From NCBI GenBank assembly GCA_014378705.1, contig JACMND010000133.1:1-32688 (forward strand): a stretch of DNA of 32,688 nt. Reading direction: 5' to 3'. Under the pieces are notes generated by a model, which saw only the letters and a list, made by a program, of their open reading frames with translations, searched no databases and was not told where the DNA came from. This DNA is from Pedobacter sp. Its GTDB lineage: Bacteria; Bacteroidota; Bacteroidia; Sphingobacteriales; Sphingobacteriaceae. Below, one piece after another: positions 18,778 through 23,913 of this stretch (positions are counted from its first letter, which is position 1; each line of letters opens with the position of its first letter). A program made the position numbers and the translations under genes.

Positions 18778-21645
18778 TTAATTTTCTTTTTGAAGCCGGG
18801 CCGGAGGGATCGCTAGTTGTTCCTTTTTTGCAGGCAAAGATGGTACAGGCAACTGTGCCGGAACTGAATCCTGATTTGTACCCTGATTAAGCAAAACCTT
18901 TTCCAGGGATTGTTTGCTAACTGTAATTTGTCTGCCAACTGTATCCTGCCCACCAATTGTATCCTGTACGCTAACTGAATCCTGTCTGCTTACCGAATCC
19001 TGTCTGTCAACTGAATCCTTTGGTGCAGCAGGAGGGATTGTTCCTTGTTTTTTAGTTTGAGTTGAATCTTTTGCAGGGGCTGGTTTTTGTTCCGAGCCTT
19101 TAGGCTTAGCCTGCTGTGCAGGAGCTTGTCTTCCGCCTCCACCACTTTGTTGCGGTGCATTTGTTGCTTCCTGGCCGCCATCTCCGCCACCTTTTAAATC
19201 GTCGTTTGAAACTGATTTTTTTCTCCGTGTAGTTTCCTGCGCATTGCTAATTTTGCCAATGCGATATGTAAAAGCAATCCGAAAACTTAAATTATTCCGA
19301 ACATCCGTACTCGACTGAGATAAAACAGGAGTGTTTAACACATTCCTCACAGTAACGGATCTACCCAAAAAGTTTTCAGCTCCCAGGCCGATGGTACCTC
19401 TTTTTTGATTAATATCTTTACGTAGGTTTAAGTTGTAAGTACCAAAACCTCCCTGTGATCCCTGAAGTTGAACCTGGCCGCCCCTGTAAAATCCGAAACC
19501 TTCAAAACCCCAGCCGTTTCCAATTTTATAACTTCCCGATAGCCTTATGTTATAAACAAAACCTTGATTATTGGCTTTATAAAGCGGATCACTTACATTA
19601 TTGGCCAATACAGAATAGTAACTATCCACACCTCCGTTCAAGCTCAGTTTGTTTGATAAATTCACATTTGTAAAAAGGCTCATGCCGTATGCATTCTCCT
19701 TGCCAATGTTGGCAAAACTGGTTCGGATTGTATCTATTCCAACTAAATCTCTGATCCGTTGAATAGAATTATTGGTGTTTCTGACAAACGTTGTAACGGT
19801 AAAAGAACTGTTTTTAATAAAAGTGCTGTACCCCAGTTCGATATTGTTGGTATACTCCGGATCGAGGTTAGGGTTTCCTATGGTGATATTAAGCGGATTG
19901 GCAGCCTGCACATTCGGATTTAAAAACTGAAGTGATGGACGCTGGATCCGCCTGTTATAGGATAGTTTAAGGGTATTTCCGGATGCCAGTCTTTTAGAAA
20001 TATTTACACTCGGCACTAAAGCACCATAAGATAATTTAAAGGCAGGATTGATTTTGTCAAAAGCAGCATCCACAGTAGTATATTCATATCGCATACCGGT
20101 TTTAAAGCTAAATTTTGATGGGGTTGTAAGGGTGTAAGAAAGATAACCTGATGAAATATTCTGATTGTAATTAAATATATTATCAAAAACAGGTGTATAG
20201 ATATTGGATGCGCCGGCCCTGAATGTTTGATAATCGCTTGTTACTTTACGTAGAATTTGTTTACCGCCAAACTCAAGTATCTGGCTTTTACCTATCGGGT
20301 TTTGATAATCAATTTGAACTGTATTTTCTTCATTAGTACTTTGGTTTAAATTTTTAAAGTAGCTGTCTATAGCGTTTTGATCATTGTTATAAATGGCGTT
20401 TAAAAAATTATTTGTCCGGTTATTTTTGCTTATCAACGCAAGAATACTTATTTCCTGCTGCGGTTTTTTAAATAAGTGGGTATAATTGAAATTCACATCT
20501 ACGGTTCCCGATTGGTCTTTTACTTCGGCATCCCTCAGAGTTGTGTTGAGCAAACTGTTATTCTGAAAGTTTTCAATAAGCAATCTATTCTGGTTGGTAT
20601 TAAAATTTCTTAACCCATATTGTACAGAAGAAGAGATGTAATTATTTGTATCAATATCATAATCCCAACCAAAGGTATATCTTCCAAACAGCGTATTATT
20701 ATCTGTACCGGCCTCCTGATTGGTTACAATTTCTTCGTTCAGGTTATTTTTGGTAACCTGAGTATTCTGGAAACTGCCGGTAGTATTATATCCTGCCCGT
20801 CCGAAACCTCCCAAAGAGAAGCCCATTTTACCGGCCTTATAACTACCGTTTAAACCGAGATTAGATCCCCTCAAACCGGTTGCCGCGTCAATACCTAACG
20901 ATCCTCCTTTTAGCGTATTTTTCTTGAGGATGATGTTAATTATTCCCGCGGAGCCTTCAGCATCGTACCTTGCGGAAGGCGAAGTAATTACTTCAACGGA
21001 TTTAATCAAGTCAGAAGGAATTTGCTTCATGGCATCGGCCACGCTTCCCGCGGTTATGGTTGAAGGACGGTTGTTAATTAAAACCTTTACATTTTGGCTG
21101 CCACGCATGGATACATTTCCGTCCAGATCAACAGAAAGCATAGGCACCTTACGGAGTACATCAGTTGCATCTCCACCTCGATTACTAATATCATTCTCAG
21201 CGTTGTAAACAGTGCGGTCTACTTTCTCTTCAATTAAAGCACGCTGGCTTACAACGGTTACTTCGTTCAATAAATTGGTGCCTGGCACTAATTGTATAAC
21301 CCCAAGTGCAACTTCGGCGTCGTTACTGCCAACTTCAACATTCGAAACAGTTTTGGTATCATACCCCAAAAAAGAAAGCTTTACCTGATACGTTCCTGCA
21401 TTAATATTAGAAATGATAAATTCACCGTTGTTATTTGCTATCGATCCCGCAATAGATTTGCCTGTAGTTGGGTTTACCAGGTTTATAGTTGCGTAAGAAA
21501 CCGGCGTCTTGTCTTTGGCATCCTGAACAGTTCCTGTTACACGGCCGTTGCTTTTTTTGGAAGGAGCGGGAGGGCCGGTTGCTACCTGGGCCTGTACAAA
21601 AGCGAATGAACTTAGCATTGCAAATAGAAATAATAATCTTTTCAT
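18778..21645 (-). CDS. outer-membrane TonB-receptor-like beta-barrel protein with repetitive tail
   Basis: A 955-residue outer-membrane protein of the OMP_b-brl_3 type. ATG 21645 opens a signal peptide (MKRLLFLFAMLSSFAFVQAQ); the longer frame to 21672 would overlap the predicted -7 box. Next come a carboxypeptidase-regulatory-like domain (RVTGTVQDAKDKTPVSYATI ... KLSFLGYDTKTV), a plug (VTVVSQRALIEEKVDRTVY, GDATDVLRKVPMLSVDLDG, MRGSQNVKVLINNRPS, SARYDAEGSAGIINI) and a barrel ending near FRIAFTYRIGKIS. After the barrel, about 145 residues of Gly/Gln/Pro/Lys-rich sequence follow, including six imperfect hexapeptides such as VDRQDS and VSVQDT. No SusD partner is present. It may import a glycan or peptide product; role inferred. 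Confidence 0.9.
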   Translation of the reverse strand: MKRLLFLFAMLSSFAFVQAQVATGPPAPSKKSNGRVTGTVQDAKDKTPVSYATINLVNPTTGKSIAGSIANNNGEFIISNINAGTYQVKLSFLGYDTKTVSNVEVGSNDAEVALGVIQLVPGTNLLNEVTVVSQRALIEEKVDRTVYNAENDISNRGGDATDVLRKVPMLSVDLDGNVSMRGSQNVKVLINNRPSTITAGSVADAMKQIPSDLIKSVEVITSPSARYDAEGSAGIINIILKKNTLKGGSLGIDAATGLRGSNLGLNGSYKAGKMGFSLGGFGRAGYNTTGSFQNTQVTKNNLNEEIVTNQEAGTDNNTLFGRYTFGWDYDIDTNNYISSSVQYGLRNFNTNQNRLLIENFQNNSLLNTTLRDAEVKDQSGTVDVNFNYTHLFKKPQQEISILALISKNNRTNNFLNAIYNNDQNAIDSYFKNLNQSTNEENTVQIDYQNPIGKSQILEFGGKQILRKVTSDYQTFRAGASNIYTPVFDNIFNYNQNISSGYLSYTLTTPSKFSFKTGMRYEYTTVDAAFDKINPAFKLSYGALVPSVNISKRLASGNTLKLSYNRRIQRPSLQFLNPNVQAANPLNITIGNPNLDPEYTNNIELGYSTFIKNSSFTVTTFVRNTNNSIQRIRDLVGIDTIRTSFANIGKENAYGMSLFTNVNLSNKLSLNGGVDSYYSVLANNVSDPLYKANNQGFVYNIRLSGSYKIGNGWGFEGFGFYRGGQVQLQGSQGGFGTYNLNLRKDINQKRGTIGLGAENFLGRSVTVRNVLNTPVLSQSSTDVRNNLSFRIAFTYRIGKISNAQETTRRKKSVSNDDLKGGGDGGQEATNAPQQSGGGGRQAPAQQAKPKGSEQKPAPAKDSTQTKKQGTIPPAAPKDSVDRQDSVSRQDSVSVQDTIGGQDTVGRQITVSKQSLEKVLLNQGTNQDSVPAQLPVPSLPAKKEQLAIPPARLQKEN
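18911..19018. repeat. six 18-bp tandem repeats within the receptor tail
   Basis: Six consecutive 18-bp units (consensus near TGTCTGCTAACTGAATCC on the plus strand) fill 18911-19018 exactly. On the coding strand each encodes a hexapeptide of the form (V/I)-x-x-Q-(D/S)-(S/T). Being in multiples of three, copy changes would keep the frame, as expected for a length-variable surface or periplasmic linker. Confidence 0.85.
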
Positions 21646-21669
21646 TGATTTATAACTTAATATCCAAAG

Positions 21670-21703
21670 CAAAACTATTCTTTTGTGTTTTCCCCTATCT
21701 AAA
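21670..21703 (-). promoter_or_regulatory. Bacteroidota-type promoter for the receptor gene
   Basis: On the minus strand TAGTTTTG (21677 down to 21670) matches the -7 consensus TAnnTTTG exactly. TTTA (21703-21700), one base from the -33 consensus TTTG, lies 22 bases upstream, near the usual 19-21 spacing. The predicted transcription start falls shortly before ATG 21645. Confidence 0.45.
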
Positions 21704-21853
21704 TTGATACCATTGGTTTAAATCTTGCGGCTAACCATGTAAATTTTGCGACCTGATAATTTGATCCATTTGAGTTAATACTGATTATTCTGTTTTTTAT
21801 TTATGTAAGGTGCTTTGGAGATAAACCTTAAGCTGATATTTTAATTATTTTTT

Positions 21854-22176
21854 GGGCGTGCCCCTGCGGGTCGGGTTTTACGCTTTAATCTTTTGCTCGT
21901 GCCTCACAAAAGGATTTCCGCTGCAACCCCTCACGCACATTGAAGAGGACTTGGAGCTTTGCATTATTTTAATTGGAAGGAGTAAATACGCTATGTTTTA
22001 CGCTTTAATCTTTTGCTCCTGCCTCACAAAAGGATTCCCTCTGCAACCCCTCACGCACATTGAAGAGGACATGGAGCTTTGCGTTATTTTAATTGGAAGG
22101 AGTAAATATGCTATATTTTATGCTTTAATCTTTTGCTCGTGCCTCACCGAAGGCTTAACGCTACTATCCCTCACGC
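21854..22176. repeat. 120-bp tandem structured repeat (two full units plus a third partial)
   Basis: A head GGGCGTGCCCCTGCGGGTCG (21854-21873) is followed by units at 21875-21994, 21995-22114 and a partial one from 22115. The first two differ at only about six positions. Each unit holds a potential hairpin (AATCTTTTG ... CAAAAGGATT around the central GCTCGTGCCTCA) and ends its GC-rich part with CCCCTCACGC, complementary in part to the GGGCGTG head. The open frame across it is only a result of the 120-bp period. The block resembles intergenic repeats I recall from Bacteroidota genomes. It lies between the 3' end of the LytTR gene and the receptor promoter. Confidence 0.85.
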
Positions 22177-22193
22177 AACCGGCTAATTTTTAA

Positions 22194-22901
22194 TTAGTTT
22201 ATCAACTTGTTAATCACATCGGGGTAGGTATCCCCAATTGAAAATTCAATATCCCCAATAAAAACGCTGTTTTTACGGATAGCGGTAACAGCCGCTTTTG
22301 AAACAATTACAGACTTATGTATCCGAATGAATTTTGAAGGAGGCAACAATTTTTCTATTCCGCTTACCGTGCTGCGGGGAACGATTGTTTTATCTGAGTT
22401 TATTAGTTTGATCTTCACATAATCCTTTAACCCCTGTATGTAAGCAATATCCCGGTAATGAATTTTGACAAGGCTGTAATCTACATTTATAAAGAAAAAG
22501 TCAGGCTCTTCGACAAGTGCTTTTTTGGTTTCTTTGTTTAGTTGATCTAATTGCAAAGCCCGGTCACAGGCCTTCAAAAACCTTTCCATAGGTACAGGTT
22601 TTAGCAGGTAATCAACCACCTCTAAGGTGAACCCTTCTACCGCAAACTCCCTGTACGCTGTTACAAAAATAACCATCGGCCTTTTTGATAAACTTTCAAT
22701 AAGCTGCATACCTGTTAGGCCGGGCATCCTGATATCAATAAAAATGAGATCAACCTCATTTTCCTGTAACGCCCTGATTGCTTCAAAGGCATTTCTGCAA
22801 GTTGCCACCAAATTCAAATAAGGAACTTTACTAATATTATCCGCCAGTAAGCTTAAGGCCAAAGCTTCATCATCAACGGCTATACAGTTAAGCATATTCA
22901 A
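22194..22901 (-). CDS. LytTR-family response regulator
   Basis: A 235-residue two-component response regulator. The N-terminal receiver domain shows CIAVDDEALAL with the acidic pair, LIFIDIRMPG with phospho-acceptor Asp56, VIFVTAYREFAVEGF and LLKPVPMERF. The C-terminal LytTR DNA-binding domain (about 135-230) shows FFINVDYSLVKIHYRDIAYI, KDYVKIKL, STVSGIEKLLPPSKFIRIHK and a short final strand. The start overlaps the end of the kinase gene by 14 bp, which implies translational coupling and a matched pair. Target genes are unknown; the nearest downstream on the same strand are the receptor-like gene and the GH3 gene. Confidence 0.95.
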   Translation of the reverse strand: MNMLNCIAVDDEALALSLLADNISKVPYLNLVATCRNAFEAIRALQENEVDLIFIDIRMPGLTGMQLIESLSKRPMVIFVTAYREFAVEGFTLEVVDYLLKPVPMERFLKACDRALQLDQLNKETKKALVEEPDFFFINVDYSLVKIHYRDIAYIQGLKDYVKIKLINSDKTIVPRSTVSGIEKLLPPSKFIRIHKSVIVSKAAVTAIRKNSVFIGDIEFSIGDTYPDVINKLIN

Positions 22902-23913
22902 GTTCTAATTCTAACGCAACATAAAAATAACCATCGATTTTATTGATCACTAAATTGTGTTTACCGGGGTAAAGCAAAGACAAGCGCCTGCGAACATTGG
23001 CCAAACCTATTCCCGAAGTTTTGTCTTTTTGTTCATTGTCTTCTTTATTGTATTGGTTGTGCACATTGAAGTAAAGCTTATGACCATGGCAATGCAAGTC
23101 GATATGAATAACCGGATCCTCAATCAGGCCCACGCCATGCTTAAAGGCATTTTCCACAAACGGAATCAATAGCATTGGTTCGATAATAAACGGAGTAGGC
23201 GGGGTTTCTAAAGTTGACGTAATATTAATAAAATCGCCAAACCGCTGTTTTTGCAGATCAATAAAATCCTGTAAATATTTAATTTCTTCACTAAGGAACA
23301 CTTTTCTGTCAGTTTCATAAAGCATGTATTGCATCAGCGTAGACAGCTTCATTACGGTAGGTTCCAATTCTTCACTTTTCAATCTTACCAAAGCAACAAT
23401 GTTGTTTAACACGTTAAAAATAAAATGCGGGCTAATTTGTGAACGTAAAAATGACACCTCGCTTTTTAAATTTTCTTTTTGCTTTTCATTGATCTTATCA
23501 TCTTCTTTAGACTTATCGCTAACCGTTTTATACGCAGTGCTGGCAGAGATTGTGATCAAAAAAGCAAGCAGGTTATGAGCAGATGAACGATAAAAGTTAA
23601 AGTTTCTATCAACCAGGAGCGGAAAAAGAGTGCCATGGAAAAGCATCATGATCAAGAATAAGGCAAGCAAAGAAAAAAAATAGATCATATACTTTTTCCG
23701 ATAGATTAGCATCGGAACAAGCAGCTCCGCGTTCAGATAAAAGATACCGGCCCTGAAAATATTTGTGGCTACGTTCAATGTCCGATAAGGGTTATCCTTG
23801 TCGTTGCCATCATCAAATATATAATTAGAAAGGATGATGACCGTCCAGATGCTAATATGAATAGCGACTTTACCCCATTTTTTACTTCGCCATTGCGGGT
23901 TAGATACGGTCAT
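22888..23913 (-). CDS. LytS-type sensor histidine kinase
   Basis: A 341-residue inner-membrane sensor kinase. Hydrophobic segments within the first 125 or so residues form the membrane part (for example VAIHISIWTVIILSNYIF and MIYFFSLLALFLIMMLFHG), followed by a short coiled-coil. The His_kinase domain has LRSQISPHFIFNVLNNIVAL with phospho-acceptor His163. The HATPase region has LIPFVENAFKHG (N box) and SGIGLANVRRRLSLLYPG (G box). No separate extracellular sensor domain is visible, so it may sense membrane-state or small molecules. It is the first gene of a two-gene unit with the LytTR regulator. Confidence 0.95.
   Translation of the reverse strand: MTVSNPQWRSKKWGKVAIHISIWTVIILSNYIFDDGNDKDNPYRTLNVATNIFRAGIFYLNAELLVPMLIYRKKYMIYFFSLLALFLIMMLFHGTLFPLLVDRNFNFYRSSAHNLLAFLITISASTAYKTVSDKSKEDDKINEKQKENLKSEVSFLRSQISPHFIFNVLNNIVALVRLKSEELEPTVMKLSTLMQYMLYETDRKVFLSEEIKYLQDFIDLQKQRFGDFINITSTLETPPTPFIIEPMLLIPFVENAFKHGVGLIEDPVIHIDLHCHGHKLYFNVHNQYNKEDNEQKDKTSGIGLANVRRRLSLLYPGKHNLVINKIDGYFYVALELELEYA

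Follow-up and report, generated by a model that had tools for sequence, protein, structure and literature searches.

The window, by which we mean the whole 32,688-nucleotide stretch of Pedobacter sp. DNA that was analysed, carries an array of Flavo-1 elements (Rfam RF01705) flanked by two minus-strand genes, one for a LytTR response regulator and one for an outer-membrane receptor; it is here that the original prediction had placed a 120-bp tandem repeat. The features of the locus are the following.

18778..21672, minus strand: neighbouring outer-membrane beta-barrel/TonB-type receptor, from the ORF, with PF14905, PF00593 and PF13620 on 18778-21645; start at 21645 or 21672
21842..21945, minus strand: unit 1, complete A-type Flavo-1 (Rfam RF01705 and our model R1), made up of an outer stem (GTGCG../..ACGCCC), a stem with two 3x3 purine-rich internal loops, and an apical loop
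21854..21874, minus strand: GC-rich head, the 3' terminal part of unit 1 (sequence, fold, paralog comparison)
21939..21994, no strand: spacer of units 1/2, duplicated within the 120-bp unit (sequence, Tandem Repeats Finder)
21964..22065, minus strand: unit 2, 3'-truncated Flavo-1 that enters the spacer after ..GCGTAAAAC (R1 match coordinates, spacer included)
22059..22114, no strand: spacer of units 2/3, second copy (sequence, Tandem Repeats Finder)
22084..22185, minus strand: unit 3, diverged and 3'-truncated Flavo-1 with no 5'-side spacer (R1 match coordinates, spacer included)
22194-22901, minus strand: neighbouring LytTR response regulator (Pfam PF00072 and PF04397)
22888-23913, minus strand: histidine kinase

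The 120-bp repeat is real and far beyond chance: for 21875-22177 Tandem Repeats Finder reports a period of 120, 2.5 copies, 90% matches and a score of 494. Units 1 (21875-21994) and 2 (21995-22114) differ at 6 of 120 bases, and the third unit (22115-22177, 63 bases) differs from them at 10/63 and 12/63 positions, respectively. The hairpin AATCTTTTG/CAAAAGGATT, predicted for every unit, is present in units 1 and 2; unit 3 has retained the left arm, and its right arm reads CCGAAGGCTT. Similarly, the predicted complementarity of GGGCGTG and CCCTCACGC is found in unit 1 only, where it forms the outer stem of the minus-strand element, and sequence comparison of the three units reveals no GC-rich head in units 2 and 3. 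The head was correctly noticed in front of the units, but it is not a separate feature, being the 3' end of unit 1. On the minus strand it reads CCGACCCGCAGGGGCACGCCC, and its end pairs with the 5' GCGTG of the element. Since the paralog reported as nearest to unit 1 (C138:3686-3770, 91% identical) likewise ends in ..CAGGGGCACGCCCAAA, the head is best understood as the 3' end of a complete element; ends like it are found at C138:3700 and C196:45566. Units 2 and 3 are truncated at one point, after ..GCGTAAAAC or ..GCATAAAAT, from which the sequence continues into the spacer. The array is three Flavo-1 copies side by side, one complete and two shortened. That the element lies on the minus strand, that the head is the element's own end and that the array is one copy among many had been overlooked. 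No other genomic copy of the window spacer was reported with 20600-23900 as the query, with 15 of 38 candidates scored.

Unit 1 matches RF01705 at 21865-21955 on the minus strand with 42.2 bits (E 5.8e-6), clearing the gathering threshold of 42 bits by just 0.2 bit. It is the sole Rfam 15 match in the whole window and aligns to covariance model positions 1-76. In a permissive Rfam scan unit 2 scored 24.4 bits, which is under the cut-off, and unit 3 gave no match. Our own model R1, built from 22 genome copies with unit 1 among them, scores unit 1 at 77.4 bits (a training row), unit 2 at 34.2 bits (E 3.6e-6) and unit 3 at 17.5 bits (E 0.15). Judging by these scores, units 2 and 3 count as Flavo-1 members only via their homology to unit 1. 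The Flavo-1 RNA was named in 2010 by Weinberg et al., whose table, in the part available to us, gives it a 'y' in the first column and an 'n' in the next two (PMC2864571). Its Rfam type is 'Gene; sRNA'. We take the first-column entry of the 2010 table to stand for RNA and the next two for cis-regulation. The accessible portions of the literature on Flavo-1/RF01705, including PMC12306157, contain no description of it as a DNA repeat that we could find.

In its own genome (G000; 3.3 Mb, 209 contigs) Flavo-1 has at least 57 matches at E<=1e-3 and at least 27 over the cut-off, both numbers being lower bounds with 150 of 726 candidates scored. Fifty-two of the 57 lie outside ORF calls, and five overlap one, including the array's own spurious ORF. 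By eye, the copies fall into three subfamilies that have internal loops in common: A (GCGTTAGGGATTG..AGCCCG..ACGCCCAA), B (GCGTTAACGATGG..GTGTTAAAACGCCC) and C (AAACCCGATAG..TAGCGGGACTA). Close inverted pairs are found at C33:12652/12793 and C7:5339/5486, both in one subfamily. At five places (C196:45566, C49:9702, C24:3950, C202:447 and C183:14013) the apical loop holds extra sequence, mostly TCCTGAGC(N)..GAAG, that has the look of one repeat lying inside another. Elsewhere in the genome, two Flavo-1 on opposite strands lie between ilvB-, ilvH- and ilvC-like genes, as named from their ORFs (L014:2001-2890, corresponding to C196:44775-45664).

The original prediction had called for a census of whether copies lie at gene 3' ends. 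By a rough ORF call, the 57 own-genome copies comprise 26 sense, 11 antisense (co-directional), 8 convergent, 5 divergent and 7 unclassed; the 121 elements from named genomes, taken from 100 of the 120 stretches of one pattern scan, comprise 22 sense, 28 antisense, 12 convergent, 16 divergent, 6 ORF-overlapping and 37 edge elements that were set aside. The sense:antisense ratio is 26:11 in the own genome (p 0.02) and 22:28 in the named genomes (p 0.48); the own-genome bias is therefore not general, and the orientation to genes is inconsistent. Random placement, which had been named as an outcome against a functional reading, largely holds, but within intergenic DNA.

A survey of 121 genomes of the family, the own genome included, in which the filters were stricter and 35 candidates were scored for each genome, found Flavo-1 in 70 of them, with up to 35 of 35 scored candidates matching in one genome and with copy numbers that differ between genomes of one genus. 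A pattern scan of genome contigs returned at least 120 stretches. The 80 rows shown with names include eight Spirochaetia/Spirochaetales MAGs, one Leptospirales MAG, one Thermodesulfovibrionia MAG and one unclassified bacterium, and for these non-Bacteroidota rows MAG contamination is possible; the names of the remainder were taken as Bacteroidota. Unit 1 had no blastn match in the plasmid and phage collections. Among viral contigs, the left-arm pattern had two matches, the right-arm pattern one, and the B-type and C-type patterns none.

Compensatory changes in other copies, the lack of which would have spoken against a structured element, were found by RNAalifold in two alignments: both sides change in 12 of 21 pairs of A1 (22 A/B copies) and in 7 of 10 pairs of A2 (35 C copies), although the copies were detected with structure-containing models, which inflates pairing and would be expected to favour G-U over A-C. 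The covariation scores of 0.418 (A1) and 0.454 (A2) are higher than those of all 500 shuffles and all slid controls, in support of the predicted structured element. Counts of further pair types do not exceed those of the shuffles, of which 397 of 500 are as high for A1 and 38 of 500 for A2. Folding energy is unremarkable, with a z of -0.71 for one element as DNA and +0.62 for the full array as RNA. It is covariation, and not energy, that supports the structure. Conservation at several loop positions equals that at stem positions, and the A1 alignment has conserved ends (GCGT..ACGCCCAAA) that are weaker in A4.

An RNA selected on one strand would tolerate G-U and not A-C, yet the two are nearly equal: three alignments, the third of which was sampled with a pattern fixing the left arm, contain 9, 9 and 38 G-U against 7, 9 and 29 A-C (56:45 in total), with 12, 18 and 32 other mismatches. 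To us this gives no hint of selection on an RNA strand and agrees with a DNA hairpin, or with drift on either strand. A tRNA control (20 tRNAs found by ARAGORN; 43 G-U, 0 A-C) is a weak one, since ARAGORN itself limits the mismatches that it accepts and the wobble count is biased.

To compare the locus between genomes, 20 genomes of the genus were searched with 20600-23900, a query with which more diverged loci could be missed. Only one genome, G124 (68% complete), gave matches to both flanks, lytS-lytT and receptor, at a single place. The intergenic region there contains one A-type Flavo-1 (R1 77.6 bits), whose orientation is opposite to that in the window through either an independent insertion or an inversion, and no 120-bp array. 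This lone copy speaks against a function bound to lytS-lytT or to the receptor. A test for intrinsic terminators (GC-rich stem plus T run) found 0 sites in 21600-22300 against 0.6 expected, and nothing above expectation around the array points to a promoter or terminator role. The original prediction had proposed, as one option, a structured RNA that acts where the lytS-lytT transcript ends or before the receptor. That the array would be a locus-specific RNA or terminator for either is suggested by its position between both genes, but with the opposite orientation and missing array in the G124 ortholog, 56 other matches in the genome and no terminator-like site, we consider it very improbable.

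Three further observations concern the surroundings. The receptor start and its upstream region (21628-21752) are 83% identical to an intergenic stretch of the own genome, C73:17585-17709, that is flanked by efflux-adaptor-like and peptidase-like genes, as named from ORF reading; a scan of the 21628-21752 region for short direct repeats found none. Within it, TTGCGGCTAACC..TTTTGCGAC (about 21723-21753) is conserved in G124 too and is a candidate shared binding site for the adjacent LytTR regulator. The receptor gene itself contains, at 18911-19019, an 18-bp repeat with about 6 copies and 73% matches.

Arrays are not restricted to the window. Genome G081 has two loci with arrays of a 232-bp unit consisting of a B-type element plus spacer, with 3.9 copies at one and about five elements at the other. 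For the gene next to one array, 10 relatives have matches, and the stretches fetched around these gave no R1 match. Part of the spacer of the G081 arrays (L158, L159) is itself a repeat dispersed in G081 and its relatives.

The 30 matches in four related genomes sort into 12 groups: five present in all four species, one in three, one in two, and five singletons. As 25 of the 30 matches fall in the seven groups common to two to four species, recent movement looks rare in this clade, as far as these sequences go. For the seven groups we counted invariant columns in the element and in the 50 bases upstream and downstream, flanks that mix coding and non-coding DNA. In the order element, upstream, downstream, the counts are 65/87, 21/50 and 32/50 for group 1; 91/97, 39/50 and 49/50 for group 2; 77/82, 44/50 and 46/50 for group 3; 85/92, 49/50 and 50/50 for group 4; 72/76, 50/50 and 50/50 for group 5; 63/69, 22/50 and 38/50 for group 6; and 71/76, 26/50 and 46/50 for group 7. 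The element is more conserved than the upstream flank in five of the seven groups and than the downstream flank in four, and in two groups it is less conserved than both. This comparison supports constraint on, or conversion of, some copies, and could mean a host function.

Comparison of sites with and without an element at L105 (G084/G113), L330 and L335 gave no clean gap, target duplication or exact boundary; synteny breaks close to the element, and the singletons L330 and L335 lie in variable DNA. At one singleton (L321:12033-12191, G084) the break in synteny with G113 comes about 45 bases past Flavo-1, and two other singletons also lie near breaks.

The search for a mobilising gene centred on RAYTs, using PF01797, NF047646 and an alignment of 18 RAYTs. 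RAYTs (NF047646) are present in 48 of the 70 genomes with Flavo-1 and in 9 of the 51 without (Fisher p 2e-8, kinship ignored). The own genome has no Y1_Tnp or NF047646 match; it holds a RAYT-like relic of 30 residues from the C-terminal part (E 0.01, L369:134-214, on C127). Eight of 40 RAYT loci have a Flavo-1 at E<=0.01 within about 4 kb (two models), three of which (L106, L121, L132) are one orthologous locus, and only L127 of the 40 has one within 300 bp. Weaker Flavo-1 signals (E 0.2 to 0.8) lie near the RAYTs of L123, L126 and L129. Inspection by eye of the flanks at about 20 of the 40 loci showed these RAYTs to be bordered, on one side or both, by repeats of other types. Because such repeats flank them, the RAYTs inspected were rejected as direct cognates of Flavo-1. 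At L126, L120, L105, L101, L114, L119, L130, L106 and L122, RAYTs are bordered by at least five hairpin repeat types, often in tandem, none of them Flavo-1. The available part of PMC6006769 describes atypical, copied secondary structures beside the genes of Bacteroidetes subclass 2.6 RAYTs (TnpA_REP); the repeats beside the inspected RAYTs fit this description, yet they are not Flavo-1. Among 30 IS200-like Y1 loci scanned there was one convincing adjoining Flavo-1, at L082, and no partner gene family stood out among 1003 ORFs at 178 Flavo-1 loci, the largest cluster having 9 members. The RAYT, Y1 and neighbourhood searches found no mobilising gene for Flavo-1.

One of the viral matches is a 5676-base microvirus contig (L366) with genes for a major capsid protein, a replication initiator and a pilot protein, and the second (L367) is a 26-kb contig. 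At 3584-3687 of L366, just after the initiator stop codon, lies one complete Flavo-1 (57.8 bits). R1 finds no copy in six related contigs or records (L372-L377), one of which has a weak R2 match at another place (E 0.012). The simplest reading would be that one lineage of single-stranded DNA phage gained the element, with relatives too distant to fix the exact junction; the copy may also come from misassembly.

We conclude, with a probability of about 0.7, that the feature is a short minus-strand tandem array of Flavo-1, that the family is a REP/BIME-like dispersed DNA hairpin, and that the array has grown by local duplication. What carries this reading is the identity of unit 1, the copy number, the covariation, the inconsistent orientation, the arrays elsewhere and the absence of the array from one ortholog. 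Flavo-1 would have spread genome-wide as a non-autonomous unit at the DNA level, probably driven by an enzyme that acts in trans on the single-stranded hairpin, and would now be mostly vertically inherited in the one clade examined. The truncation pattern of units 2 and 3 suggests how the array may have formed: the complete unit 1 and a direct copy truncated at its 3' end, today's unit 3, could have been the starting pair, separated by about 56 bases, and slippage or unequal recombination between them would then have doubled 'spacer + hairpin' to yield the middle unit. Duplication of the whole unit by slippage had been proposed from the start, and slippage or recombination indeed fits the array best. 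Arrays of this kind are ordinary for such repeats. A wider claim, which we hold tentatively and at a little under even odds, is that Flavo-1 represents a REP-like class of mobile DNA hairpins across Bacteroidota as well as Spirochaetota/Thermodesulfovibrionia MAGs, moved in trans by a single-strand nuclease and able to enter single-stranded DNA phage.

The catalogued view is that Flavo-1 are small non-coding RNAs or transcript elements, the array being a multi-copy sRNA locus. The Rfam type, the strong covariation with conserved internal loops and the excess over the upstream flank in five of seven ortholog groups agree with it, the own-genome orientation bias would do so if it were general, and in F. 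psychrophilum Flavo-1 matches coincide with several 5' regions that are transcribed (PMC9723704). In the accessible part of that same study, matches are found in sense or antisense alike and many lie outside transcribed regions (PMC9723704); together with near-equal G-U and A-C, dozens of genomic copies in inconsistent orientation and the 'y', 'n', 'n' of the 2010 table (PMC2864571), this makes the sRNA view unlikely, and there is some evidence that the Rfam label is wrong. We find it just as doubtful that Flavo-1 is the REP of a subclass 2.6 RAYT: co-occurrence across genomes and the own-genome relic point in this direction, but the own genome lacks a Y1_Tnp or NF047646 match, Flavo-1 is seldom near a RAYT, and other repeat types occupy the flanks.

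Retention of Flavo-1 for host use, as DNA or transcript hairpins at gene ends that would stabilise mRNA or bind the nucleoid or gyrase, roles suggested for REPs/BIMEs, is possible, although we lean against it. Orthologous elements that are little altered where the adjacent intergenic DNA has diverged (the groups of L325, L344 and L348) speak for such use, as do the own-genome copies between the ilvB-, ilvH- and ilvC-like genes (named by eye). The patchy presence of the family (51 of 121 genomes without a match), its variable copy number within one genus and two of seven groups with no excess conservation speak against it.

An unexplained repeat is now tied to a catalogued family, with computational grounds to doubt its sRNA label. 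PMC9029176 names Flavo-1 in its section on the most abundant sRNAs, the part available to us; should Flavo-1 be a DNA hairpin repeat, sRNA counts that rely on Rfam are too high in Bacteroidota. If true, our reading would define a new group of REP-like elements with a searchable mobiliser, and the microvirus copy of L366 points to movement into single-stranded DNA as a testable step.

Several known systems resemble Flavo-1 in part. MITE-type elements are non-autonomous, high in copy number and intergenic. So is Flavo-1, which differs in that its inverted arms are broken by conserved unpaired loops and in that no target duplication was found. IS200/IS605-type ends are imperfect hairpins with conserved unpaired ends, suited to single-stranded DNA recognition. 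Flavo-1 shares this architecture but has no transposase inside. With REP/BIME elements, as described in the accessible parts of PMC6006769 and PMC3733652, it has in common a bulged palindrome, tens of mostly intergenic copies and several subfamilies, along with inverted pairs and tandem arrays with repeated linkers. It is longer than the 20-40 bp given for REPs in the part of PMC3733652 available, lacks by inspection the GT[AG]G foot (GCGT in A/B types, AAACCC in C type), which according to the accessible part of PMC6006769 the subclass 2.6 structures also lack, and brackets no RAYT among the 40 loci. Because of the differing foot and the lack of a cognate RAYT, we do not file it as a REP/BIME proper. 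Closest is Flavo-1 as catalogued in RF01705, to which unit 1 belongs by a score above gathering and by its stem with two internal loops. What the window adds is a tandem array with two 3'-truncated copies, an A1 element that is longer than the Rfam model and has conserved ends, and evidence that favours a DNA repeat over an sRNA gene.
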